From positions 1-30,393 of IMG/VR virus record IMGVR_UViG_3300050821_005225: a DNA stretch of 30,393 bases. One strand, 5' to 3'. The position numbers and the translations under genes were made by a program. This DNA is from a virus. Shown here one piece after another: positions 4,149 to 30,344 of the stretch. Positions within the stretch are counted from its first letter, which is position 1. The number at the start of each line of letters is the position of its first letter. The notes beneath the pieces were generated by a model. That model had not been told where the DNA came from, made no database searches, and was given only the letters and a program-made list of their open reading frames with translations.

Positions 4149-6430
4149 TACGCTACCCTTTGCCATAAAGCTGTTCGTGATCCGATGCCGCCATCACCAC
4201 CCGACCCAAAGTCATAGGCATAGCCGCGCAACTCCCAGGCACCACCAGCTTCGGGCGCCGTATAGTTTTTGTTGAGTCGGTAAGAACCGATGGACCCATC
4301 CTGCAAGCCTGGCCCTGTCAGCTGATTGGCGAATCCGACTGCCAGCGATCCGCGGTTGTACAACGACATTTCGACCCGGCCAGGTTCGCAGCCATAGACG
4401 TAATAAGGTTGTGCGCCAGGATTTTCTTGAAAGCGCATCGAGACGTTGCCAACTTTGTCGGCGTTACCCGCACCCGTCGCATAGCCGGCGCTATTGGCGT
4501 AGTTGACGCTGAAGTTGGAGGGGTTGTAGACGTTGACGTCACCTGGCGAGGTTCCGCCGAACAGCCATGGCGGCTGACCGCCAAAACCGCTCCAGTTCAA
4601 ACGGATTGATTGAATCCCGAAAACGACCGACCCCATATCGGTGGCATCCACCGTGACCTTCACTCCGCTGCCATTGGACCACCCGATTTTGACGGTATTT
4701 GGTATTTGCCCGATGCCTGTGCCTTGCTGCACAGGCGAATAGCCGAGTGTGTCTTGTTTGGCAGCTGGATTGAAATTTCCCGAATGCCATAATTTGCTCC
4801 AGCCTCGCCACTCCGCATTTTTACCTGAGCGATGCCAGATGTTGTCATTCTCAGTGAAGCCAAGTTGATGGGCATACCCGCCAGTGAAATCTGCGCCAAT
4901 GCCCCACGGCCTGAAATTCATTACGCCGTGATAGTTCCCGCCATCTGTCAGGCCGTCGCTTTGATTGCCTTGCATGGCAAAGGTGGCACCACAAATCGTA
5001 TCTTGTGGCGCGAAATTGGTGTCGCGGGTATCTTTAGACAAGACCATGTCTGCGGCGGCTGCGTTCGTGGCAACGCCGGCACCTGCGGCATAACCGACCC
5101 GCAGTTGGGAGGTGGTCATCAGTCTGGCGCTTGTAGGGTCGTCGCTTCCCCATAGCCAAGCCGTTTGTCCTCCAGGATCGCCCCAGTTCAATCGCATATA
5201 GCTTATGCCATTGCTGATTTTTTCAGCGGCCTGTGCACCACCGGCACTATCGGCATAGTTAACTCTAAAATTCGATGGGTTGTAGACGTTCACGTCATCG
5301 GCATACGCGCCACCAAATAGCCATTCAGGCTGTCCAGCGAGGCCACGCCAATTAAGACGCATCGCACGGTCGCCAAAAACGAAACTGCCCTGGTCGCTAG
5401 CGTCAACCGTCGCCTTTAGCCCCTTACCATCAGACCAACCAATCTTGACGATATTTTGTGTTTGAGCAATGCCGGTACCTTGCTGAACCGGAGTAAAGCC
5501 AAGCGTGTTTTGCTTCGATGTTGGATCAAACGTCACCGAATCCCACAGCAGTTTCCAGGCACGTCCGAAGAATGGCGGTGTCGAGTCCAGGTATCCTGTG
5601 CGCTCCCAGGTTCTGCGGGTAGTGCCGCCTTCGCTGTAGCGTTGGCGGACGAACTGCCCGCCGTTCACTGTCGTCAGCGTGCCGTAGCCGTCGCCGCCAA
5701 CGGGGAGATGTGTGGCGGCGACAATGCCGCGATCATTGGCGACGGAGACATCGCGCACGCCTGTTTCCAACAAGGTATCGCAATCGGTGTCACTGTTGGT
5801 GACAGCGGGTAGCCTGCGAAAATACAACGCGTTTGCGCGGTCCGATGTTAAATATTGCTTGTGCGGATCAGCGTCCGCCCTGTGATTGGCAATGGCCTGA
5901 TCCATGGCCGGCGCCAGAGCGGCTGGCGTAACTGCACGTACGCCATCTTTGCCGGCCTTGGTTTCCTCGACGGTTGCCAGTTCGACCACCCCTTGGCGAT
6001 CCACGGTTGCCGGCGGATTCGTAAAGTTGGCGTCGCCAAATGTCAGGGAGGTGGCTTTGATATTGGCAAAAACGACGTCAGCGGCCAGCAGCATCATCGA
6101 CTGCGTGGACTTTTGCAGTATCGGATCTGGCTGGCTGTACACGCCCAGCAGGACGCCATTGCTTAACCAATAGCCAATACCGCGCATCGTATAGGTGTCG
6201 GTGCCATCGTCGCGAATGGTGACGTGCATCGTATCGGGTGCGACGACTTCGCCGGAAATGGTCTTGATGCGTTTGATCTCGCCTGGCAAGGCGTTCGTGT
6301 CTTCGTTAGCCGTAAAGACGGCAGCAGTAATGCCGATCTCCGTGATCTTGAGCGGCGCCGTGCCGTTATGTTCGGCATTGACCAGGGCGGCACGGCCGGC
6401 CTTGGTGATGATGATTTGGAGTCCAGGCAT
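4148..6430 (-). CDS. H: Tail fibre protein (gpH-like) with duplicated internal module
   Basis: 760 residues. The N-terminus (MPGLQIIITKAGRAALVNAE) is the conserved P2 gpH-type baseplate-attachment domain spanning about residues 1-160. Residues 160-205 hold a short coiled connector with HRADADPHKQYLTSDRA, a common fibre motif. The distal part (about 290-760) is a beta-rich receptor-binding region in which one module occurs twice (residues 306-398 and 558-650). The C-terminal 50 residues (RLNKNYTAPEAGGAWELRG and on) resemble adhesin tips of other phages. It determines host-receptor choice. The stop overlaps the chaperone gene start. The fibre is the most variable part of such phages, so only the N-terminal domain assignment is firm. 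Confidence 0.92.
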   Translation of the reverse strand: MPGLQIIITKAGRAALVNAEHNGTAPLKITEIGITAAVFTANEDTNALPGEIKRIKTISGEVVAPDTMHVTIRDDGTDTYTMRGIGYWLSNGVLLGVYSQPDPILQKSTQSMMLLAADVVFANIKATSLTFGDANFTNPPATVDRQGVVELATVEETKAGKDGVRAVTPAALAPAMDQAIANHRADADPHKQYLTSDRANALYFRRLPAVTNSDTDCDTLLETGVRDVSVANDRGIVAATHLPVGGDGYGTLTTVNGGQFVRQRYSEGGTTRRTWERTGYLDSTPPFFGRAWKLLWDSVTFDPTSKQNTLGFTPVQQGTGIAQTQNIVKIGWSDGKGLKATVDASDQGSFVFGDRAMRLNWRGLAGQPEWLFGGAYADDVNVYNPSNFRVNYADSAGGAQAAEKISNGISYMRLNWGDPGGQTAWLWGSDDPTSARLMTTSQLRVGYAAGAGVATNAAAADMVLSKDTRDTNFAPQDTICGATFAMQGNQSDGLTDGGNYHGVMNFRPWGIGADFTGGYAHQLGFTENDNIWHRSGKNAEWRGWSKLWHSGNFNPAAKQDTLGYSPVQQGTGIGQIPNTVKIGWSNGSGVKVTVDATDMGSVVFGIQSIRLNWSGFGGQPPWLFGGTSPGDVNVYNPSNFSVNYANSAGYATGAGNADKVGNVSMRFQENPGAQPYYVYGCEPGRVEMSLYNRGSLAVGFANQLTGPGLQDGSIGSYRLNKNYTAPEAGGAWELRGYAYDFGSGGDGGIGSRTALWQRVA
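4481..4759 (-). repeat. Fibre module copy B (codons 558-650 of the fibre gene)
   Basis: Second copy of the 93-residue module, encoding KQDTLGYSPVQQGTGIGQ... to NYANSAGY. It aligns without gaps to copy A at 5237-5515. Protein identity is clearly high while many codons differ, indicating an older duplication. Confidence 0.85.
5237..5515 (-). repeat. Fibre module copy A (codons 306-398 of the fibre gene)
   Basis: Encodes KQNTLGFTPVQQGTGIAQ... to NYADSAGG. It is paired with copy B at 4481-4759. Both share TLG, PVQQGTGI, VKIGWS, G-V/F-VFG, RLNW, WLFGG and DVNVYNPSNF in the same order and spacing, so this is a tandem-type intragenic duplication separated by about 160 residues. Confidence 0.85.
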
Positions 6431-9131: not shown

Positions 9132-9344
9132 ATGCAGGAAATCCGTTGTGGGAATTGTTCCCGAAAGCTTGGGCAAGGTGAATACATCACCCTGTCCATC
9201 AAATGCCCGCGTTGCGGCACATTAAATCATCTGAGAGCCACGCGCCCCATACCCGCATGCCATCGAGCATCTGACTATGGAGCAGTACGTGCAAGCAAGT
9301 CCGATCATTCCTTGGATGGGTGGCAAACGCCGCCTAGCCGATAA
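9132..9344 (+). CDS. com: Com-like zinc-finger translational regulator
   Basis: 70 residues from the ATG at 9132. The N-terminal 30 residues, MQEIRCGNCSRKL then LSIKCPRCG, carry two CxxC pairs (C6/C9 and C25/C28). They match the pattern of phage Mu Com, a small zinc protein that binds mom mRNA and opens a hairpin covering the mom ribosome site. The C-terminal 35 residues are unrelated-looking and overlap the methylase start by 68 bp, the same kind of overlap seen for com/mom in Mu. The methylase ATG has only a weak ribosome site, which fits activation by Com. That it regulates the methylase here is inference; the family assignment is firm. Confidence 0.85.
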   Translation: MQEIRCGNCSRKLGQGEYITLSIKCPRCGTLNHLRATRPIPACHRASDYGAVRASKSDHSLDGWQTPPSR

Positions 9345-10083
9345 ACTCATCCCCATATTTCCGCCGCATGAATGCTATGTCGAGGTGTTCTGTGGTGGCG
9401 CCGCACTGTATTTCTTGCGGCCGGTGCCGGCGCGTGTCGAGGTCATCAACGACATCAACGGCGAACTGGTCAACCTATATCGAGTCGTGCAGCATCACAT
9501 GGCGGAGTTCGTGCGACAGTTCGAATGGGTGATCAGCAGCCGCGAGCTATTCAAATGGTATCAGGATGCGCGGCTGGAAACCTTGACCGACATCCAACGC
9601 GCCGCCCGTTTTTATTATCTGCAGCAGCACGCATTTAGCGGCAAGGTCGCCGGGCAGAATTTCGGCACCGCGACCACCGCGCCGGCCATCGATCTCAGTC
9701 GAATTGAAGAAAATCTGAATGCGGCACGATTGCGCCTGGCCGGTACCTATGTCGAAAACCTGCCCTGGTTGGAATGCATGAAGCGCTATGACCGGGAGCA
9801 CACATTCTTTTACTTGGACCCGCCGTATTGGCAGATGGCTGGCTATGGCGTGGATTTTGGGATCGAGCATTATGAACAGATGGCCGAATTCATGCGGACG
9901 TGCAAAGGCAAAGTCATGGTCAGCATCAACGACCATCCGGATATTCGCAGGGTGTTCGAAGGTTTTACGATGATGGGACTGGATATCAAATATAGCATCG
10001 GCAGCACGCATGGCCAGCCCGTGGTCAGTAAGGAGTTGGTCATTACCAACTGGGATGCTGCTGTTGTGACGCAACTATTTTGA
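9277..10083 (+). CDS. D12-class DNA adenine methyltransferase (Dam-like)
   Basis: 268 residues. The N-terminus has PIIPWMGGKRRL (the WxGGK motif at 13-17), the SAM-binding motif I YVEVFCGGAAL (34-44), and the catalytic DPPY motif at 181-184 within FFYLDPPYW. These three mark the MethyltransfD12 family, which methylates N6 of adenine, often in GATC. The later VMVSINDHPDIRRVFEGF segment is also typical. It is preceded by and overlaps com. It likely protects phage or host DNA from restriction or modulates gene expression; no cognate nuclease is adjacent, although the ATPase gene 190 bp downstream runs the same way. GC-rich codon use resembles the phage backbone, unlike the downstream ATPase. Confidence 0.92.
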   Translation: MEQYVQASPIIPWMGGKRRLADKLIPIFPPHECYVEVFCGGAALYFLRPVPARVEVINDINGELVNLYRVVQHHMAEFVRQFEWVISSRELFKWYQDARLETLTDIQRAARFYYLQQHAFSGKVAGQNFGTATTAPAIDLSRIEENLNAARLRLAGTYVENLPWLECMKRYDREHTFFYLDPPYWQMAGYGVDFGIEHYEQMAEFMRTCKGKVMVSINDHPDIRRVFEGFTMMGLDIKYSIGSTHGQPVVSKELVITNWDAAVVTQLF

Positions 10084-10275: not shown

Positions 10276-12897
10276 ATGGAAGCTCCTGCTGTTGCAATGG
10301 CACATGATTTACCTGATGCATTTGAGCTCTGGCTTGGAGAGCGCCCCAGATGGCTACAGACTGCCGCTAGAAATTTGATCGACACGAAGCACATGCCGAG
10401 TGAGGACGAGATTAGTTTGCTTGTGGATTTGTGCAAAGGCGAGGCTGCTAGCACAAAGGGCTTAGTGTTTGCAGCACCTCAGCCCGGATCGTTGGTTGGT
10501 GCATCAGCGAGGCCACGTTTGCGAATTGCCGGATTGTCTAATGTGAGTGGTGTAAATGCAATCAAGGAAGGGGCCGACTTAACTTTCGGTGATGCAAATA
10601 TTACCGTGATTTATGGTCCCAACGGTTCGGGGAAAACCGGCTTCGCTCGCTTGCTAAAACATGCGTGCAATTCTCGCGCTAAAGAAGAGATATTTTCAAA
10701 CGTATTTGAAGACGCAAAAAAAACGTCGACCGCAAAGATTCATGTTCTATTAGGGAAGGAGGAGCACGTCCTTGATTGGAGCCATAATGGTCCAATTATT
10801 AAACAACTGCGCGACGTTCACATCTTTGATTCGAAATCAGCCAGTATGTATGTCGGGATGAAAAATGAGGCAACCTATGAACCACGTAGGATGCGATTTT
10901 TGTCGGCTCTAATTACCATTTGCGATCATATCGCCGCTTGTATTGACGCTGACAAGCAAGCTCTTCAAAAGAAAATTCCAACTTTTCCCGTTGAGTTTAT
11001 GGGAACACTTTCTGCCAAATGGCTCAATGGATTGAAATCAAGCACGCCCTTGGTTGACGCCAATAAATTTTGCGATTATCCGAAAGAGCTTGATGATGAG
11101 CGAGTCGCATTGGAACATGCTCTTGCGCAGAAAGATATAGCGGCTAGGCTACAAGCAATTGCCAAAAGCACCGCCACATTGTCACAAGTTAAGACTAGTT
11201 TCGCATCGCTAAAAGCTGCGCTGAGTGACAATCAACTCGGGCAAATCGCAAGTGCTCGACTTGACGCCAAAACAAAACGAAAAACCGCAACGGAAGACGC
11301 CGCCAAAGTATTCGCTCAAGCACCTCTGGGCGGCGTAGGTCAGCCATCATGGATGGCGCTTTGGGAGCAAGCAAGGAAATATTCTGAGTCGCATGCATAC
11401 TCTGGAACATCGTTTCCAGTAGTCCAGGATGGTAGCTTGTGCGTCCTCTGTCAACAGGAGTTAAATGTTGACGGGAAACAGCGCCTTTCCCATTTTGAGG
11501 CTTTTGTAAAAGGTGGTTTGGAAGCAGAAGCTAAAGCAGCAGAAAATAGGTTATTGGAACTATGTAAAAAATTACCGACTCTTCCTCAGTTGCCTGGCTG
11601 GATGGTTCAAACAGATTTTTTGAAGGTAGATGAGGGAGAAGCAAAACTGAATTTTGCGTCCCTCCAGGCTCGTCGTGTCGCCGCTGATAGTGCAGTGCAA
11701 ATGGATGAGATTCCCCACTTCGAATGGGCGCAGCTTGAGCAAGCGATTACGACGCAGGAACAGGCTAATGCGAGCGAAGAGAAGGCCCTGAAAGAATTGC
11801 AGAGTGATGGTAAGCGTAAAGAGAAGGAAACCAGGGTTGTGGAACTTAAGGCGACTCAGTGGCTAAACCAAAACAAGCAGTCGATCATTGACGAGATCTC
11901 GCGCTTAAGTGCGTTGGCAATATTAGACAAAGCATCTGCTTTGACGAAAACAAATGCACTTACTACAAAAAAGAATGAGCTTGCGAAACAGGAGGTTGAT
12001 GCTGGCTATCAAACTCGCTTTTCACAAGAGATTGAGTCACTTGGTGGAAAGCGAATCAAGGTTAAGCCGGAGAGCAAACAAGAAGGAAAAGGCAGGATTA
12101 GTTTCGGATTGTCTTTGCAAGGTATCAAGAAGCAGGCAAAGGCAGGCGAAATATTAAGCGAAGGGGAAACTCGTATCGTGGCGTTGTCCGCTTTCCTTGC
12201 TGATATAACCGGATCTGGAGAACCTACCCCTTTTATATTTGACGATCCTATTTCGTCGCTGGATCAGGATTTTGAAGAGCGGGTTGTCACTCGCCTTGTA
12301 GAGTTGTCAAAAAATCGGCAAGTGGTGGTCTTTACGCATAGACTCTCATTGTTGACTCTCATTGAAACGGCTGTAGGTCGTTTAGAGCAGCAGGCGAAGC
12401 TCGAACAAGTTCCTCCACCCGTGACCGTAAATGTGAAGGCACTGCGTTGCTTAGGCAATGCTGTAGGAATTACGCATCAACTAAATATGCGCGAAGCGAA
12501 GCCCCAAAAAGCCGCAAATAGATTGCGGGATGAGACCATTCCACAGTTGCGTAAGCTGATTGAACAAAACGATATTGAGTCATATGACGATAGGGCAAAA
12601 AGCGTCTGTAGCGATTTTCGGATTTTGGTGGAGCGTTGTGTCGAGAAAATTCTGTTTAATGATGTTCTACAACGATTCCGACGCTCTGTTGAGACTAAAG
12701 GGAAAATTGGCGCACTGGCGAAAATCACTACAGACGATTGTGCTTTTATCGATGATCTTATGACGCGCTATTCTGCTTTTGAGCATTCTCAGCCTGATGA
12801 ATTGCCGGCAAAGTTACCAGAGATCGATGATCTACAGGCCGATGTCGAAAAGCTAGCTACATGGATCGCAGATTTCGAAAAACGTGCGATTGTCTAG
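10276..12897 (+). CDS. Rad50/RloC-like ABC ATPase, probable anti-phage effector
   Basis: 873 residues. After an approximately 100-residue N-terminal region comes Walker A, GPNGSGKT (114-121). A long helical section follows with a central CVLC pair (C389/C392), as in the zinc hooks of Rad50 and RloC. The ABC signature (LSEGE, 627-631), Walker B FIFDDPISSLD (653-663) and switch histidine (H688 in VVVFTHR) complete the split ATPase. The C-terminal 160 residues contain R782-x3-E786 and H837, reminiscent of the Arg-Glu-His triad of PrrC/RloC anticodon nucleases; this is my inference. Such proteins sense phage DNA disturbance and cut tRNA. Codon use is visibly AT-richer than the tail genes on both sides, suggesting separate acquisition. 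It sits at the orf30 position of P2. Alternatives: another AAA_13-type defence ATPase without tRNase activity. Confidence 0.75.
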   Translation: MEAPAVAMAHDLPDAFELWLGERPRWLQTAARNLIDTKHMPSEDEISLLVDLCKGEAASTKGLVFAAPQPGSLVGASARPRLRIAGLSNVSGVNAIKEGADLTFGDANITVIYGPNGSGKTGFARLLKHACNSRAKEEIFSNVFEDAKKTSTAKIHVLLGKEEHVLDWSHNGPIIKQLRDVHIFDSKSASMYVGMKNEATYEPRRMRFLSALITICDHIAACIDADKQALQKKIPTFPVEFMGTLSAKWLNGLKSSTPLVDANKFCDYPKELDDERVALEHALAQKDIAARLQAIAKSTATLSQVKTSFASLKAALSDNQLGQIASARLDAKTKRKTATEDAAKVFAQAPLGGVGQPSWMALWEQARKYSESHAYSGTSFPVVQDGSLCVLCQQELNVDGKQRLSHFEAFVKGGLEAEAKAAENRLLELCKKLPTLPQLPGWMVQTDFLKVDEGEAKLNFASLQARRVAADSAVQMDEIPHFEWAQLEQAITTQEQANASEEKALKELQSDGKRKEKETRVVELKATQWLNQNKQSIIDEISRLSALAILDKASALTKTNALTTKKNELAKQEVDAGYQTRFSQEIESLGGKRIKVKPESKQEGKGRISFGLSLQGIKKQAKAGEILSEGETRIVALSAFLADITGSGEPTPFIFDDPISSLDQDFEERVVTRLVELSKNRQVVVFTHRLSLLTLIETAVGRLEQQAKLEQVPPPVTVNVKALRCLGNAVGITHQLNMREAKPQKAANRLRDETIPQLRKLIEQNDIESYDDRAKSVCSDFRILVERCVEKILFNDVLQRFRRSVETKGKIGALAKITTDDCAFIDDLMTRYSAFEHSQPDELPAKLPEIDDLQADVEKLATWIADFEKRAIV

Positions 12898-22496: not shown

Positions 22497-23177
22497 ATGT
22501 GCGGACGAATCACCCAAACTAGAGAAGCCAGAGCATACGCCAAGGAAGTCGGCTGGACCAACGTTGACTACCGCGACCGTGATTGGCATCCAGACTGGAA
22601 TATGCCGCCTGGTCGCAACCCGTTCGTTTTGCATCTGCTTGGCAGGAAGCCAGCAATTGATTCTGTACACTGGGGATATCACCCCAAATGGGCTGTCGAG
22701 CGAAAGCTGCCGATGATGATTAATGCACGGCTTGAAAAAGCAGCTACCGGCCCGGCCTGGCGCAGCATGTTTAAGTCGGGACGGGTGATTGTCCCTGCCG
22801 AGGGGTGGTACGAGTGGATAGGTGAGAAGGGCCACAAGCAGCCTTGGTACATAAGGCTCAAGTCAGGCCAGCCTATGTTCATGGCAGCAATCACCGATTT
22901 CCGACCAGGCCGAGAACCGCAAGTAGGCTCGGGCTTCGTAATAATCACTGCGGCAGCGGAAGGTGGCTTGGTCGATGTGCATGACCGGCGTCCCGTAGTT
23001 CTGGCGCCTGACGACGCAATGCTGTGGATGGACAACTCACTGCCGCCAGAGCAGGCGGAACAGATTGCGCGACAAATGGCGCTCGGCCCCGAGGCGTTCG
23101 AGTGGTACAAGGTGTCTACCGCTGTCAATAAGGCGGACCATAGCGACCCTCACATGGTCGAGCCAATTCCCGGCTAG
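22497..23177 (+). CDS. SRAP family abasic-site protein (YedK/HMCES-like)
   Basis: 226 residues beginning MCGRITQTRE. After removal of Met the catalytic Cys2 forms a thiazolidine crosslink with abasic sites in single-stranded DNA, shielding them from error-prone repair. The other active-site residues are present: N76 in INARLEK, E106 in EGWYEW, and H162 in VHDRRP. All match YedK Cys2/Asn75/Glu105/His160. It stands alone behind its own promoter and converges on the 105-aa minus-strand gene, overlapping it by 53 bp. In phages such genes may protect replicating DNA. The nearby LexA box gives the cassette a DNA-damage theme. Confidence 0.93.
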   Translation: MCGRITQTREARAYAKEVGWTNVDYRDRDWHPDWNMPPGRNPFVLHLLGRKPAIDSVHWGYHPKWAVERKLPMMINARLEKAATGPAWRSMFKSGRVIVPAEGWYEWIGEKGHKQPWYIRLKSGQPMFMAAITDFRPGREPQVGSGFVIITAAAEGGLVDVHDRRPVVLAPDDAMLWMDNSLPPEQAEQIARQMALGPEAFEWYKVSTAVNKADHSDPHMVEPIPG

Positions 23178-24237: not shown

Positions 24238-27200
24238 TCATTCGACCATTTCTTCCGCCTCAACCGTCGGCAATGTCGAATCCGCCCCCTCGATCATAGC
24301 GATCTCGCTCGGAGAAAGCTCGTAGAGCTGATATAGATGGTCGTTTATTGCGCGTTCGTACTTTTCAATATCAGCACTATGATTTTCCTCTTTTCGCTGC
24401 AATATTTTTTCCACCGCAACAATTATCGGGCGCATCTTTTTGCGACTTAATGGCAGGGGAATGGAATTGATCATATCTTTTGTAAATGTCACGCCCCCAT
24501 TGTAACTAGCTGACCCGTACTTAGCTTTGACATAGAAAATCGCAATCGGGCTATTCAGGATAGCAGAAACGTACTTGAGAACGTCATCGTCCTGTGATGT
24601 AAGCACAAGTGTAGTTTTTCCTGGAATCATTTCACCGCGAAGATCGAGCGTAGCGTCCAAGAGAGTTAGTCCCTTCACTATGATTTTCTTTGCGTCGCTC
24701 TTCAGCTTATACGTATTCGTGAAATAGGCGGCGAAATCGTCGCGGCTAACCATTGGTCTCAAGTATTTGCTCTTAAGATAGGTCATTGGTTTCATGCCCC
24801 ACCGTGACACGTACTTTCCTAACGTCCCGGTATTAACCACCAAGTACTGTTTCTTCGCATTAAATTTTGCAGTAATGTCGGCTACGAAAGGCTTTAGCTT
24901 GTATGCATCGGCTGTTGCGCATGCACTTTCACACTGAATAATATCTCTGATACGACCATGTTTTTTGTCGAGTTTGCAAACGAAATCGTAATGCACCGAT
25001 AGCAGTGGATCTAAAAAATATGGAGGTTCTATTTCCGTTTTTGAAACCTGATTAAGTTGAATCAAGCTACCACCTTGGAATGCTGCGGTGGATATGTTGG
25101 TGGTAGGAAGCTTTGAGACCTGCGTGATGATTGAATCCACTATAGCGCTCTCAAAAACGTCTCTTCCAAGCATGACTACCGTTTCTATCCCTCCAATGTG
25201 CTGCATTCGAAATTCATTACCGAAAGGTTTCGATATCCATTTGTCGGGTGTAATAAAAGTCATGGTCCCTGTCTGCTTCAACAATTTCAGGCCAAGTTCC
25301 ATGAATACAATATACAAGTCCCAGTTCCCCTTTGCGCAGGAATAGGTTTCTGTCAAATGTTGACGAATGTCTCCATGCCCATCATTCAACATTTTTTCTG
25401 AATCTATATATGGAGGATTAGCGATTACTGCATCAAAACCGACAAACTCACCGCCGTCGTCCAGAACCTCAGGAAATTCGAAACGCCACTCAAAAGCGTC
25501 TTCATAAATTTTACTGATCTTGATAGCTTCGATTTGTTTTTCCAACTTCTCAATAGCAATACGCAGGGACTCCAGTTCTGCCTTACGGGTCGCTTTCTCT
25601 TTAGCACTTTCCTCGAAAAGAGATTGCTGTCCTTTTCTTGCGTTGAACTTGTCTCTCGAAGTATTTAATCTCCGCACTACAGGGTCATTGTTCTGAATTT
25701 CCTGGCGAAAACTTTTTTTCGTTTCATCTATGAGCTGTTCCATCTTCCGCTTTTCCGACTTACTCTTGGCATCTCTATATGTTGAAACTGCCAATTGATA
25801 GTCTTTAAGTGTTCGCCCACTTTTCTTCAGCGCTGACTTCAAATCCTCTTCTAAGCCAAATCGACTAATAGTTGAGTTTCCCTTTTTGATATTTATGTCG
25901 ATATTAGGAAGGGTCTCAAGATTACCGTTTGCATCGTAATAGGCATTTTTCAATAGTTCAATCCATAGACGCAACCTACAAATTTTTACGGAATTTTGAT
26001 TGATGTCCACTCCAAACAAGCAGTTTTCAATGACTGTTTGCTTTTCATGAAATAGTGCTTCCTGGATGCGCTGACTTTCTTTGCTTGCCGGTTTGTATTC
26101 CAGCAATTCGCCATCTTCGTCGCTCACTATCAGCTCATCACCAATTACCTCAATTTGATATTCCTTTAGTCTCTTCCCGGATCTATCTAACAGCACGAGA
26201 AGGTCATTCTTGAGAGATATAATTTCGTTTAGAGCGGAAACGAGAAAGTGACCAGAGCCGACAGCTGGATCACAGATTCTAAGACTATTAATTATTGTAT
26301 TTGCTTCCTTTTTGTCTGTAATTTTTTCGTATAAATCTTCTACCGACTTGCAGTCCCAATTTTTGACTTCATTAAATTTTTGAATCGCTGCTTTTCTGAT
26401 TGTCTCTCGGCACATATGCATCGTTACGAAGCCAGGCGTGAAAAAAGAACCATCTTTGTAGCCGTTGATTTTTTCGAAAATCAGACCTAATACTGAAGCA
26501 TTAATTAGCCTCTTGTTCTCTTCTTGAATTTGTCCTGCAGTGTCTGCTGAGAAGTCAAATGCACTTAGGAAATCAAGTATGTATTGCAGTGGACTTAAGT
26601 ATCCCTTGAGTTTTTCTCCAGAAGAGTCTTTAAGAACGGTCGTTTTGAGTACTCTAATTTTCCTATCGCCAGACAGATTACTAATTGGGATGGCTTCGTG
26701 TTCCAATTCTGTTGGCTCGAATAGCGAACTGTTCAAGTAAGGGACACGCGGGAATTGCCGCTGTATTTCCGGATCACGATCTGCCGGACGGCGAGCTAAT
26801 ACCTCGAAAAATAACTCATTGAGTCCAGCGAAACTTTTCACTTTTTCGCTATTCAAAAAAGCTAAATCTTTGTCGCCCTTATGGAAAGCGAGGAGCTGCG
26901 CTTCTAAGAGCTTAAGAAACAAAATCCGATTGATCCAGGTAATTGACAATTCAAGCGAGACGTTGAATAGTTGGTCATCTCTGGTCAAGCCGTAATTTTT
27001 AAAATTCTGAATTCGCTCAAGCTTTTCCAAGGCGTCGATCTGATACATCGCATTCTCAACCAGTGAACCGCTATCTCGCTCTTTTCCGGTCCGTCTCACG
27101 ATCAATTCTTTTCCGCCAACTTGTACCTCAACTAAACCGATGATGTGGAGAAGTTCGGTATAAAACCCTTTGTCTAGGCGATTACTGTCGTTGTTAATTT

Positions 27201-27915
27201 GCTGCTTCAGTAGATGCTTCGGGGAAAGCAGCTTAAATAAAGAAATTAGTTGAGCATCGTCATTTTGCGAGTCACTACGCAATGCTTGCTCGTAATCTCG
27301 GATGTCGAAATAGGTGTACTCAATTTCGCTTTCGATGGCTTTTATTGCTGGCGCAGCGATCTCGCGATAAAAGAACGGCGTTCTTGTATCAACTAGCCCT
27401 TTTTTCACGAATTCTTTGAATTGATTCACGAAAAAAATATCTTGAGCAAAATGGCGCTCAAAAAATATGGCGTCAAAAATGAACCACTCATATATATTTG
27501 TACAGATGAGGTATTTGATCTCGATATTTTTCGAGATGAAGCGCTCACGCATGTAGTACCACACCAGCTCCTGGAATCCCTTGGAATTCAAGGTCGACTG
27601 AGATGGCATTTCAGCGGTGTTGGTGGGCTTCTTGGCCTCAATGATAATGCCGACATGGTCTTGTGCATTTGGCCCAAGGTGTATCACCAGGTCGTTGCGC
27701 CCTTTGGTATTGATGAAATTGGTTTGCCCGTAGTAAGTCTTCTTGAGGAAATCCGCTGCCAGATTTTTATGGAACTCTTCAGATTCATGATCGTTTGAGC
27801 GATCAAGCAACTCAACTAAGTTGCTTTTGAAGGCCTCGATCTCGCTCCGCGCAGGCCTCATTTTCAGAAATGCTTTATTTAACGCCTTTTTAGGTGTCAG
27901 CTTTTTCTCATTCAT
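24238..27915 (-). CDS. Type IIG (Eco57I-like) restriction-modification enzyme
   Basis: 1225 residues. The N-terminus carries a PD-(D/E)xK-like nuclease pattern: D75 in GRNDLVIHL and E93-x-K95 in IIIEAKK. The methyltransferase core has SAM motif I CDPAVGSGHF (548-557) and catalytic IANPPYID (NPPY at 833-836), marking N6-adenine methylation. A lysine/glutamate-rich coiled coil spans about 700-800, and the C-terminal 380 residues form a TaqI_C-like specificity region (GGVTFTKDMINSIPLPLS). One polypeptide thus methylates and cuts. The gene is AT-rich and far larger than backbone genes, a typical transferred defence module. The ribosome site is GAGG upstream of the ATG. Related single-chain methylase-only enzymes exist, but the intact nuclease residues favour restriction. 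Confidence 0.85.
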   Translation of the reverse strand: MNEKKLTPKKALNKAFLKMRPARSEIEAFKSNLVELLDRSNDHESEEFHKNLAADFLKKTYYGQTNFINTKGRNDLVIHLGPNAQDHVGIIIEAKKPTNTAEMPSQSTLNSKGFQELVWYYMRERFISKNIEIKYLICTNIYEWFIFDAIFFERHFAQDIFFVNQFKEFVKKGLVDTRTPFFYREIAAPAIKAIESEIEYTYFDIRDYEQALRSDSQNDDAQLISLFKLLSPKHLLKQQINNDSNRLDKGFYTELLHIIGLVEVQVGGKELIVRRTGKERDSGSLVENAMYQIDALEKLERIQNFKNYGLTRDDQLFNVSLELSITWINRILFLKLLEAQLLAFHKGDKDLAFLNSEKVKSFAGLNELFFEVLARRPADRDPEIQRQFPRVPYLNSSLFEPTELEHEAIPISNLSGDRKIRVLKTTVLKDSSGEKLKGYLSPLQYILDFLSAFDFSADTAGQIQEENKRLINASVLGLIFEKINGYKDGSFFTPGFVTMHMCRETIRKAAIQKFNEVKNWDCKSVEDLYEKITDKKEANTIINSLRICDPAVGSGHFLVSALNEIISLKNDLLVLLDRSGKRLKEYQIEVIGDELIVSDEDGELLEYKPASKESQRIQEALFHEKQTVIENCLFGVDINQNSVKICRLRLWIELLKNAYYDANGNLETLPNIDINIKKGNSTISRFGLEEDLKSALKKSGRTLKDYQLAVSTYRDAKSKSEKRKMEQLIDETKKSFRQEIQNNDPVVRRLNTSRDKFNARKGQQSLFEESAKEKATRKAELESLRIAIEKLEKQIEAIKISKIYEDAFEWRFEFPEVLDDGGEFVGFDAVIANPPYIDSEKMLNDGHGDIRQHLTETYSCAKGNWDLYIVFMELGLKLLKQTGTMTFITPDKWISKPFGNEFRMQHIGGIETVVMLGRDVFESAIVDSIITQVSKLPTTNISTAAFQGGSLIQLNQVSKTEIEPPYFLDPLLSVHYDFVCKLDKKHGRIRDIIQCESACATADAYKLKPFVADITAKFNAKKQYLVVNTGTLGKYVSRWGMKPMTYLKSKYLRPMVSRDDFAAYFTNTYKLKSDAKKIIVKGLTLLDATLDLRGEMIPGKTTLVLTSQDDDVLKYVSAILNSPIAIFYVKAKYGSASYNGGVTFTKDMINSIPLPLSRKKMRPIIVAVEKILQRKEENHSADIEKYERAINDHLYQLYELSPSEIAMIEGADSTLPTVEAEEMVE

Positions 27916-28406: not shown

Positions 28407-29009
28407 TCAATCATCAGTTGGCAGTGCGGCAGGCGGATGCGGCTTATTTTCCGCCTGATGTTTTTCCCCAGGATCTGAACCAGGGGAGGGGAGCGCCATA
28501 GCGCCTTGATCTTCCTCGACTTCATTTGCAAAATCGATATTAATCTGTTTGGTTTTTAAAGGAATCTCAGTCGATCGTATTGCATCAATGCCTAATCTAG
28601 TTGCCTCGGCAATCATGTTGTCATCATCCGTATAAATTATTTTTACACCGTGCTGGCGCGCGATAGCAAGAATTTGACGATCAACCTTAATTTGTTGCCA
28701 AGGAGCCTTGGAATGTCCCTTTTTTTTGCCGGTGTTGATTGCACCACGATGGATAAATGCTGCTTCAAAAGCTGATGCTTCATCAAACGGAAGTATCCGT
28801 ATAGCGCTACGTTTTCTCATCAACGAAATGATGCCTGACGTAGCAATATCAGTCCCACACAAAACCTCAGCCCAAGCTGGTGCGGGAACACCGATTGCCG
28901 TTTTTGATTTGACTAAATCCTGAATTAATCCTTCGAGTCGTTCGTAAAGTACACTTGAATCTTTTTCGGTGGCGAGCGTTATAAATATATTTGCGTCAAA
29001 AAAAATCAT
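28407..29009 (-). CDS. PIN-domain nuclease (VapC-like), 200 aa
   Basis: The first 150 residues form a PIN fold. Acidic residues are in the expected order: D5 in FFDANIF, E48 in AWAEVL, D110 in KVDRQILAIA and D128-D130 in YTDDDNM. These bind metal and cut RNA in VapC toxins. A proline/acid-rich tail (about 165-200) is unusual for VapC and may be an interaction tail. The ATG overlaps the stop of the 246-aa gene by four bases, so the two are co-translated. The upstream partner is far larger than a VapB antitoxin and unrelated in sequence, so this may not be a classical toxin-antitoxin pair. Confidence 0.8.
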   Translation of the reverse strand: MIFFDANIFITLATEKDSSVLYERLEGLIQDLVKSKTAIGVPAPAWAEVLCGTDIATSGIISLMRKRSAIRILPFDEASAFEAAFIHRGAINTGKKKGHSKAPWQQIKVDRQILAIARQHGVKIIYTDDDNMIAEATRLGIDAIRSTEIPLKTKQINIDFANEVEEDQGAMALPSPGSDPGEKHQAENKPHPPAALPTDD

Positions 29010-29746
29010 TCAAGGCCTCGTAACTTTCTCCATTCCTCTATCGGGAATTCCATGCTTCCCCAGCCATTGTTGGACACACTCTTGAAGTCGGCCAGTATTT
29101 CGTCTAATGGCGTGGTATCTAGTTCTTCATACGATTGAATAGTAAGCAGCTGGATTTCCCAAGTACCATCTCCATGCCGGACCCACTTGCCCGATCCATG
29201 TGCTCTAATCGGATTGCCTAGGTAGTGGCGCGACAATTCTTTGGCGTAGGCTTCACCGCGAATTTCGCAGCGAATAACCTTACCCTCTTGATCTCTGAGA
29301 TGAACAGGAATGGTGGCATCCTTGCCACCAATTTTAATAACGACACCATCAACGGTAGTAGGTTGGATGATCGTCACTGTTTCTTGAATTGCTAGTTTCC
29401 GGCCGAGAAATTCGAGAATTTTCCCGCCCTTTTTTCCTGTGCTAATTGTTCCAACCGCGTTATCAGCTCTCAGTAGGTTGTCTAAGGTCTGATAAGCTCT
29501 TTGTGCATCTTGTACAGCGGATGCGCTATTTACACTTTGCAGACGCCACATAACTTTTGGCACGGCTGGCTCATCAATAGAAACATTCAGCTTGGCACTG
29601 CCTTTTGTAATGCTGTCAAAATGCACAGACTCCTCGCTGCCGTACAGGGCAGCGAGATTGGATAGGTATTCAGCCAGACGAGCCATCGGCAGGCTCTCAG
29701 GGGTATAGCTATCAATTCTGAATGTTAGCTTTTCTTTAATGTCCAT
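29006..29746 (-). CDS. Unknown 246-aa partner of the PIN protein
   Basis: Starts at ATG 29746 (an upstream GTG at 29758 lacks a ribosome site), with GAGG about 11 bases before. MDIKEKLTFRIDSYTPESLP opens an alpha/beta region with a helical MARLAEYLSNLAALYG segment. Residues 120-200 look beta-rich (VDGVVIKIGGKDATIPVHL, then GSGKWVRHGDGTWEIQLLTI), possibly an OB-like or double-psi-like domain. I recognise no family. It is co-translated with the PIN protein and has a consensus -10 in front. It could be an antitoxin, a sensor or a nucleic-acid-binding regulator of the nuclease. Confidence 0.7.
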   Translation of the reverse strand: MDIKEKLTFRIDSYTPESLPMARLAEYLSNLAALYGSEESVHFDSITKGSAKLNVSIDEPAVPKVMWRLQSVNSASAVQDAQRAYQTLDNLLRADNAVGTISTGKKGGKILEFLGRKLAIQETVTIIQPTTVDGVVIKIGGKDATIPVHLRDQEGKVIRCEIRGEAYAKELSRHYLGNPIRAHGSGKWVRHGDGTWEIQLLTIQSYEELDTTPLDEILADFKSVSNNGWGSMEFPIEEWRKLRGLE

Positions 29747-29770
29747 AGTGTATTGCACCTCATAAATGCC

Positions 29771-29776
29771 ATTATA
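29771..29776 (-). promoter_or_regulatory. -10 element of the 246-aa/PIN operon
   Basis: The minus strand reads TATAAT exactly, 24 bases before the ATG at 29746; the -35 region, which would overlap the 3' end of the nucleotidyltransferase gene, is not convincing. Confidence 0.45.
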
Positions 29777-29779
29777 GCT

Positions 29780-30190
29780 TCATGTTAGGCACCCAACATC
29801 GAAGTCGACCTTTGTAACTTCATTGTGCTGCTTTTCCATTGAAAGGCGCACGGACTCGATGGCTTGATCGTCTTGTAACGTCGGCTCGCGGGTCAGGATC
29901 AAGGTGACGTCCAAGTCCGATGTGCCAGCCGTCGCATCACCTCTCGCGACGCTGCCGTACAGGTACACGCTGTCAATCAAAGACCCCAAACAATCAAGCA
30001 GTGTGCCACACAGATCATCGGCAGCTGAACGGAAGGCCGGCTGGATTGGTCCACGGGATATGGTCCGAATGAACCCCTCCGCATCTACGCCTTTTGAATC
30101 AAGCAAATCTGTCCTCCCGGTCCACACAATATCCGATGCCAAAATCGGCGCCTTTATTAGGTGGAAGACAGCGCGTAAATCACTCCGCAA
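29780..30190 (-). pseudogene. Nucleotidyltransferase-domain protein, likely truncated
   Basis: 136-codon frame with the polymerase-beta-type nucleotidyltransferase motif: GSVARGD (79-85), DLD (92-94) and a third acid in VDFDV (D129/D131). These are the three metal-binding positions. Relatives I know continue after VDFDVG... with a helical domain, while this frame stops five residues later at 29780, just before the PIN-operon promoter. No ATG exists; a TTG at 30106 has GGGAGG six bases upstream. It may be a truncated host or island gene, or alternatively a small stand-alone MNT-like protein. Confidence 0.5.
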
Positions 30191-30295: not shown

Positions 30296-30335
30296 AGCTT
30301 GGGAAGCTTTCGTTCTACCATTGAACTACACCCGC
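30296..30335 (-). tRNA. tRNA-Gly(CCC), 5' 40-nt fragment only
   Basis: On the minus strand GCGGGTG (acceptor), TA, GTTC-AATGGTA-GAAC (D arm), G, AAAGC and loop TTCCCAA give a tRNA-Gly with anticodon CCC (30301-30303). After GCT the anticodon stem fails to close (GCTCA instead of GCTTT) and no T-arm or acceptor 3' strand follows. The break is sharp. It is best explained as an element junction within the anticodon stem, with the tRNA 5' half and promoter on the host side. Confidence 0.8.
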
Positions 30336-30344
30336 GATAGGCGC

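Follow-up and report, generated by a model that had tools for sequence, protein, structure and literature searches.

The stretch of viral DNA analysed here, 30,393 nucleotides in length and referred to as the window, carries two overlapping genes, one for a protein of 246 amino acids (X) and one for a PIN-domain nuclease (PIN). The following features were located in and around the pair.

29006 to 29746, minus strand: X, 246 amino acids, proposed antitoxin; ORF starting with ATG and matching phrog_19868
28407 to 29009, minus strand: PIN-domain nuclease, 200 amino acids, proposed toxin; ORF starting with ATG and matching PF01850 and phrog_21691
29006 to 29009, minus strand: ATGA overlap of the X stop and the PIN start, read from the sequence and suggesting translational coupling
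28407 to 28493, minus strand: proline-rich C-terminal extension of PIN, specific to the window copy
29771 to 29776, minus strand: perfect TATAAT -10 box, read from the sequence
29780 to 30190, minus strand: NTP_transf_2 nucleotidyltransferase ORF, 136 amino acids (PF01909, E=5e-7), a neighbour outside the module
24238 to 27915, downstream of the pair: Type IIG restriction-methyltransferase, 1225 amino acids (DUF7149/DUF7814/Eco57I; PADLOC E=4e-224)

An earlier inspection of the letters alone (the sequence-only reading) had described a two-gene operon with an ATGA overlap behind a consensus -10 box. The operon was borne out, since both genes lie on the minus strand and share ATGA at 29006-29009, and a GAGG-type ribosome binding site is found about 11 nt 5' of the X start. 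The -10 box is indeed a perfect TATAAT, but no acceptable -35 box accompanies it at 29776-29771 and a sigma-70 scan did not report the site, so that the putative promoter of the pair is defined by the -10 hexamer alone. In Collimonas (L010), X is preceded by the same arrangement of TATAAT and ribosome binding site, next to a different flanking gene. No consistent operator palindrome was detected upstream of X in the 24 loci searched, and the palindrome ATGTTGGG-TG-CCTAACAT upstream of X in the window is within chance expectation.

The NTP_transf_2 ORF ends 33 nt before the X start. Its protein contains a GSVARGD...SDLD motif and is weakly similar to MntA-type antitoxins and PDC-S09, and no gene for a HEPN partner was seen next to the ORF. 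A role of the nucleotidyltransferase as an MNT-type partner in the module was ruled out, because the DNA similarity shared with relatives does not extend beyond the ribosome binding site of X. At about 30300-30338, a tRNA-Gly(CCC) gene breaks off within its anticodon arm, so that its 5' half is present and no 3' half follows; the sequence matches a Massilia tRNA (L015) and then departs into the prophage. This half gene therefore marks the prophage edge, in agreement with the placement of the pair at such an edge, beside the Type IIG gene, in the sequence-only reading. In the Massilia locus, 1.1 kb separates an X-PIN pair from a tRNA-Gly(CCC) gene that is intact. The structural genes of the window show a match of ∼68% to the P2-family Burkholderia phages KS14 and KL3.

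PIN matches PF01850 above the cut-off (E=1.1e-8) as well as phrog_21691 (E=2.7e-29). Its catalytic acids D5, E48, D110 and D129, which had been judged intact from the window, are invariant in 59 relatives. The AF2 model (pLDDT 88) has VapC and FitB as its top fold matches (3zvk: Z 15.0, 2.3 Å over 128 residues), Nob1 and HARP also being among the fold matches, while PADLOC 2.0 returned a match at chance level only (E=0.024). The toxin half of the pair is an ordinary PIN. The proline-rich tail pointed out in the window copy is real, with a pLDDT of 60-65 over most of its length, but the significance given to it did not hold: about 95% of relatives lack the tail, which was ruled out as a functional feature because it is not conserved.

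For X, phrog_19868 was the sole match among Pfam, NCBIfam, PADLOC and PHROGs (E=9.5e-56), and the partner was rightly called unrecognised and far larger than VapB-type antitoxins. No credible Pfam family was obtained for 72 X relatives, and profile searches with X and these relatives detected no VapB-type DNA-binding domain (RHH, AbrB, Phd or HTH). Likewise, no defence model of PADLOC 2.0 matched X, and no solved structure was matched by the X profile at the sequence level. The structure prediction suggested for the 246-residue protein was run and gave an AF2 model with a pLDDT of 93, comprising an N-terminal alpha/beta domain (residues ∼1-115), an OB-fold (124-210) and a C-terminal arm (211-246) modelled with lower confidence than the rest of X. 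The OB-fold resembles PriB/SSB (Z 9.8, 2.8 Å over 75 residues) and also the anticodon-binding domain of Lys/AspRS. Among viral fold matches of X, a DUF6575 protein ranks first (E=2e-9), with a TM-score of only 0.35 for the whole model; the DUF6575 profile (PF20215) was absent from the families found in 72 X proteins at E up to 0.1, and we regard the modelled resemblance as a structural hint only.

The C-terminal arm of X carries a tryptophan and an arginine that stand out by their conservation:

29009 to 29116, minus strand: codons of the arm, residues 211-246, proposed PIN-inhibiting segment
29060 to 29062, minus strand: W229 codon, 89% conserved
29018 to 29020, minus strand: R243 codon, 97% conserved

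These values, from 93 sequences, compare with an average of 38% for the other columns of the arm. The spacing of 14 between W229 and R243 is kept in 74 of 81 sequences, and the motif lies near the C-terminus. In Shigella VapBC, Trp47, Trp50, Phe51 and Phe60 of VapB pack into VapC, and Arg64 of VapB enters the active site of VapC in place of a metal ion; the spacing from Trp50 to Arg64 is likewise 14 (PMC3384007). Since the profile of the X arm found no VapB match among PDB sequences and Pfam, the likeness is one of functional analogy, and the shared spacing may be a coincidence. In a mean-field DCA of the 93 paired X and PIN sequences, the couplings were dominated by a phylogenetic hub at PIN position 122.

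X-PIN loci were gathered from phages, plasmids, viral contigs and species genomes, yielding 93 non-redundant loci in which both genes are intact. These loci come from the Alpha-, Beta- and Gammaproteobacteria (Pseudomonadota) and from the Acidobacteriota, and the pair is found on chromosomes, plasmids and phages. X is situated directly upstream of PIN in all 38 viral loci that were found from PIN alone. Among 385 genomes of one class, X occurs in 11 and PIN in 11, ten of which have both; in the two unshared cases, X is accompanied by a truncated PIN and PIN lies where a contig ends, respectively. In another class, the pair was present in 3 of 369 genomes. The intergenic gap is -4, -1 or 0 nt in 60 of 79 pairs, comprising 25 copies with the -4 overlap seen in the window and 35 more with -1 or 0. 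On average, about a third of the residues are shared across the set, both for X and for PIN, and the distances of the two proteins correlate strongly (Mantel r 0.79, compared with a null maximum of 0.11). Because an overlapping or abutting pair recurs in dozens of divergent genomes, the pairing is far beyond chance. The co-occurrence check proposed with the sequence-only reading thus found the pair strongly conserved together elsewhere, the opposite of the outcome named there as speaking against the idea. Between the window copy and those of Collimonas or Herbaspirillum, DNA similarity covers the two genes only, from the ribosome binding site of X into PIN. No third conserved gene was detected, the flanking genes varying between loci. 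We therefore consider the module to consist of two genes and to be mobile and self-contained.

The two genes are not lost alike. At least 10 loci have an intact X and a broken or absent PIN, a count that has to be read with the bias of X-anchored searches toward loci that keep X. PIN is frameshifted in four of these loci (L004, L008, L046 and L074), where some of the frameshifts are possibly sequencing errors; it carries a nonsense mutation in L029, an internal deletion removing E48 in L017, and is truncated in L025, L028, L044 and L068. For L004 (NZ_CP104131), the sister plasmid NZ_CP104127 shows an uninterrupted PIN match at the site of the frameshift. No locus combined an intact PIN with a broken X, and none of the 38 PIN-anchored loci had an intact PIN without X. 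If lesions fell according to gene length (PIN, ∼170 of 416 codons), the chance of finding 10 out of 10 in PIN would be ∼1e-4 by our own arithmetic. X is cut short in L059 and L073, and PIN is missing there too. In the former, from Methylobacterium (5001-5402), X is cut after ∼107 residues by unrelated sequence and no PIN is found, making it a fully decayed copy. Start codons also differ, as TTG is the only possible start for PIN in 24 of 93 copies compared with 1 of 93 for X, a bias in the sequences that would be consistent with lower synthesis of a toxin. The order of the genes, antitoxin first, fits an assignment of X as the antitoxin and PIN as the toxin.

We propose that X and PIN probably form a type II-like toxin-antitoxin module in which a VapC-like toxin is paired with an antitoxin of a new kind. 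The toxin-antitoxin-like character claimed by the sequence-only reading is well supported, since the two genes are obligately paired in a fixed order, loss is asymmetric and falls on PIN, PIN is predicted to fold like VapC, and X ends in an antitoxin-like arm. Counting against it, none of the known antitoxin DNA-binding domains was recognised in X, and a conserved operator palindrome was not found upstream. In the proposed mechanism, X would bind PIN with its arm lying across the PIN domain; W229 would pack on the hydrophobic core of PIN, like Trp50 of VapB in VapBC, and R243 would enter the four-acid metal site, like Arg64 of VapB. Loss or titration of X would free PIN, which may then cut RNA and thereby cause growth stop or cell death. 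On a prophage, such a module could act through post-segregational killing to stabilise the element, could abort infections by other phages, or could do both, and the OB-fold of X might bind nucleic acid as part of autoregulation or as the trigger of the response. The role of the pair is probably that of prophage stabilisation or defence cargo.

A part in defence is suggested by the genomic position of the pair. In the Ostro and Kingella phage loci, the pair is co-directional with an S24/CI-type repressor and lies downstream of it, and such a repressor accounts for 7 of the 10 upstream ORFs tested in other phage or prophage loci, these ORFs having been pre-selected by size and strand. This place after a co-directional CI-type repressor points to expression in lysogens. 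In several phages the pair thereby shares its position with RexAB-type exclusion genes, which are lysogen-expressed; genes in the RexAB position protect lysogens. The likeness to RexAB is one of position, and the window pair sits at the attachment-site end with no adjacent repressor.

The pair might accordingly be read as a prophage anti-phage system for superinfection exclusion, whose OB-fold would sense phage nucleic acid or an SSB-like product, so that PIN is released or activated and infection is aborted. We hold this to be possible, although at less than an even chance; it agrees with the toxin-antitoxin anatomy, and what sets it apart from our proposal is its purpose and trigger. In its favour are, besides the repressors upstream in several unrelated phages, the location of the window pair at the attachment-site end, where a Type IIG enzyme and a nucleotidyltransferase are its neighbours, and the likeness of the OB-fold to ssDNA-binding proteins. 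The DUF6575 domain of the best viral fold match was moreover reported in a functional anti-phage screen (PMC9519451), a paper in which PIN is not mentioned. However, X itself has no DUF6575 sequence match and a low whole-model TM-score, the repressor count comes from the pre-selected ORFs, and the chromosomal copies lie mostly among unrelated (housekeeping) genes. Restriction neighbours occur beside these copies, but no defence family was enriched, and no family of any kind was found in more than 2 of 146 ORFs. The defence role put forward in the sequence-only reading is therefore no more than possible: neither PADLOC matches above chance level nor enriched defence neighbours were found, and only the prophage positions suggest it. 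In a more elaborate version, which we think unlikely, X would be a dual antitoxin and sensor whose Arg arm plugs PIN while the OB-fold binds phage nucleic acid or ssDNA-binding protein; infection of the lysogen would then release PIN and abort the infection, making the pair a PIN-effector defence of a new class, expressed together with the prophage repressor.

There is rather little to recommend the idea that X is a targeting subunit and not an inhibitor, its OB-fold recruiting RNA, DNA or a tRNA anticodon to PIN. The likeness to PriB/SSB and to the anticodon-binding domain of Lys/AspRS as well as the obligate co-inheritance of X and PIN would suit such a subunit, but X repeatedly outlives PIN, which would be odd for a mere targeting subunit, and the near-invariant Arg is placed at the tip of a flexible arm, as it is in PIN antitoxins. 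A degenerate or housekeeping RNA-processing pair without a toxin role is very improbable, for although toxicity does not follow from a PIN domain by itself, rRNA and tRNA are also processed by PIN proteins, and Nob1 and HARP are among the fold matches, the pair is rare and patchy (3/369 and ∼11/385 genomes), occurs on plasmids and phages, has no fixed neighbours and keeps its catalytic acids invariant.

The proposed toxin-antitoxin module resembles VapBC and FitAB in being a two-gene operon with the antitoxin first and an overlapping or abutting toxin gene, in its PIN toxin with four acids and a VapC fold, and in the C-terminal arm of the proposed antitoxin, where a conserved Arg follows a Trp at a spacing of 14 residues as in Shigella VapB. 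In contrast to VapBC and FitAB antitoxins of about 75-90 residues, X has 246, and it combines an alpha/beta domain with an OB-fold in place of RHH, AbrB, Phd or HTH, with neither a conserved operator palindrome nor a VapB sequence match. Since no VapB-type DNA-binding domain was found, we do not count the pair as a member of VapBC, although it would work in a VapBC-like manner. DUF6575 proteins, in turn, are linked to X by fold and not by a profile match in 72 X proteins.

Few toxins of bacterial toxin-antitoxin systems are as common as those of the PIN type, and the antitoxins known for them are small DNA-binding proteins. A search of mostly open papers, outside toxin-antitoxin databases such as TADB, found no relevant literature on a PIN toxin with an OB-fold antitoxin. 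The novelty claimed for the pair holds for the architecture of the partner and less for the rest, as the toxin is an ordinary PIN and two PHROGs without annotation already represent the family. X and PIN are direct members of PHROG 19868 and PHROG 21691, respectively, both listed with unknown function, and what is new here is that the two are linked as a pair with a proposed mechanism. If the proposal is true, a large two-domain OB-fold antitoxin would widen the known range of PIN regulators, Arg-plug inhibition would be seen to work from an unrelated scaffold, and a function would be given to two phage protein families that lack annotation. The place beside CI-type repressors makes a role in defence or addiction directly testable in lysogens.

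Two further genes of the window deserve mention. An AAA ATPase of 873 amino acids (10276-12897) gives a full-length match of 1070 bits to the PADLOC candidate PDC-S06; its gene lies on the opposite strand amid P2-like tail genes, adjoins a Dam-like methylase ORF (9277-10083) and is likely to be defence cargo. The product of the ORF at 22497-23177, starting MCGRITQ, resembles by eye a DNA-protein crosslink protein of the SRAP/YedK type.
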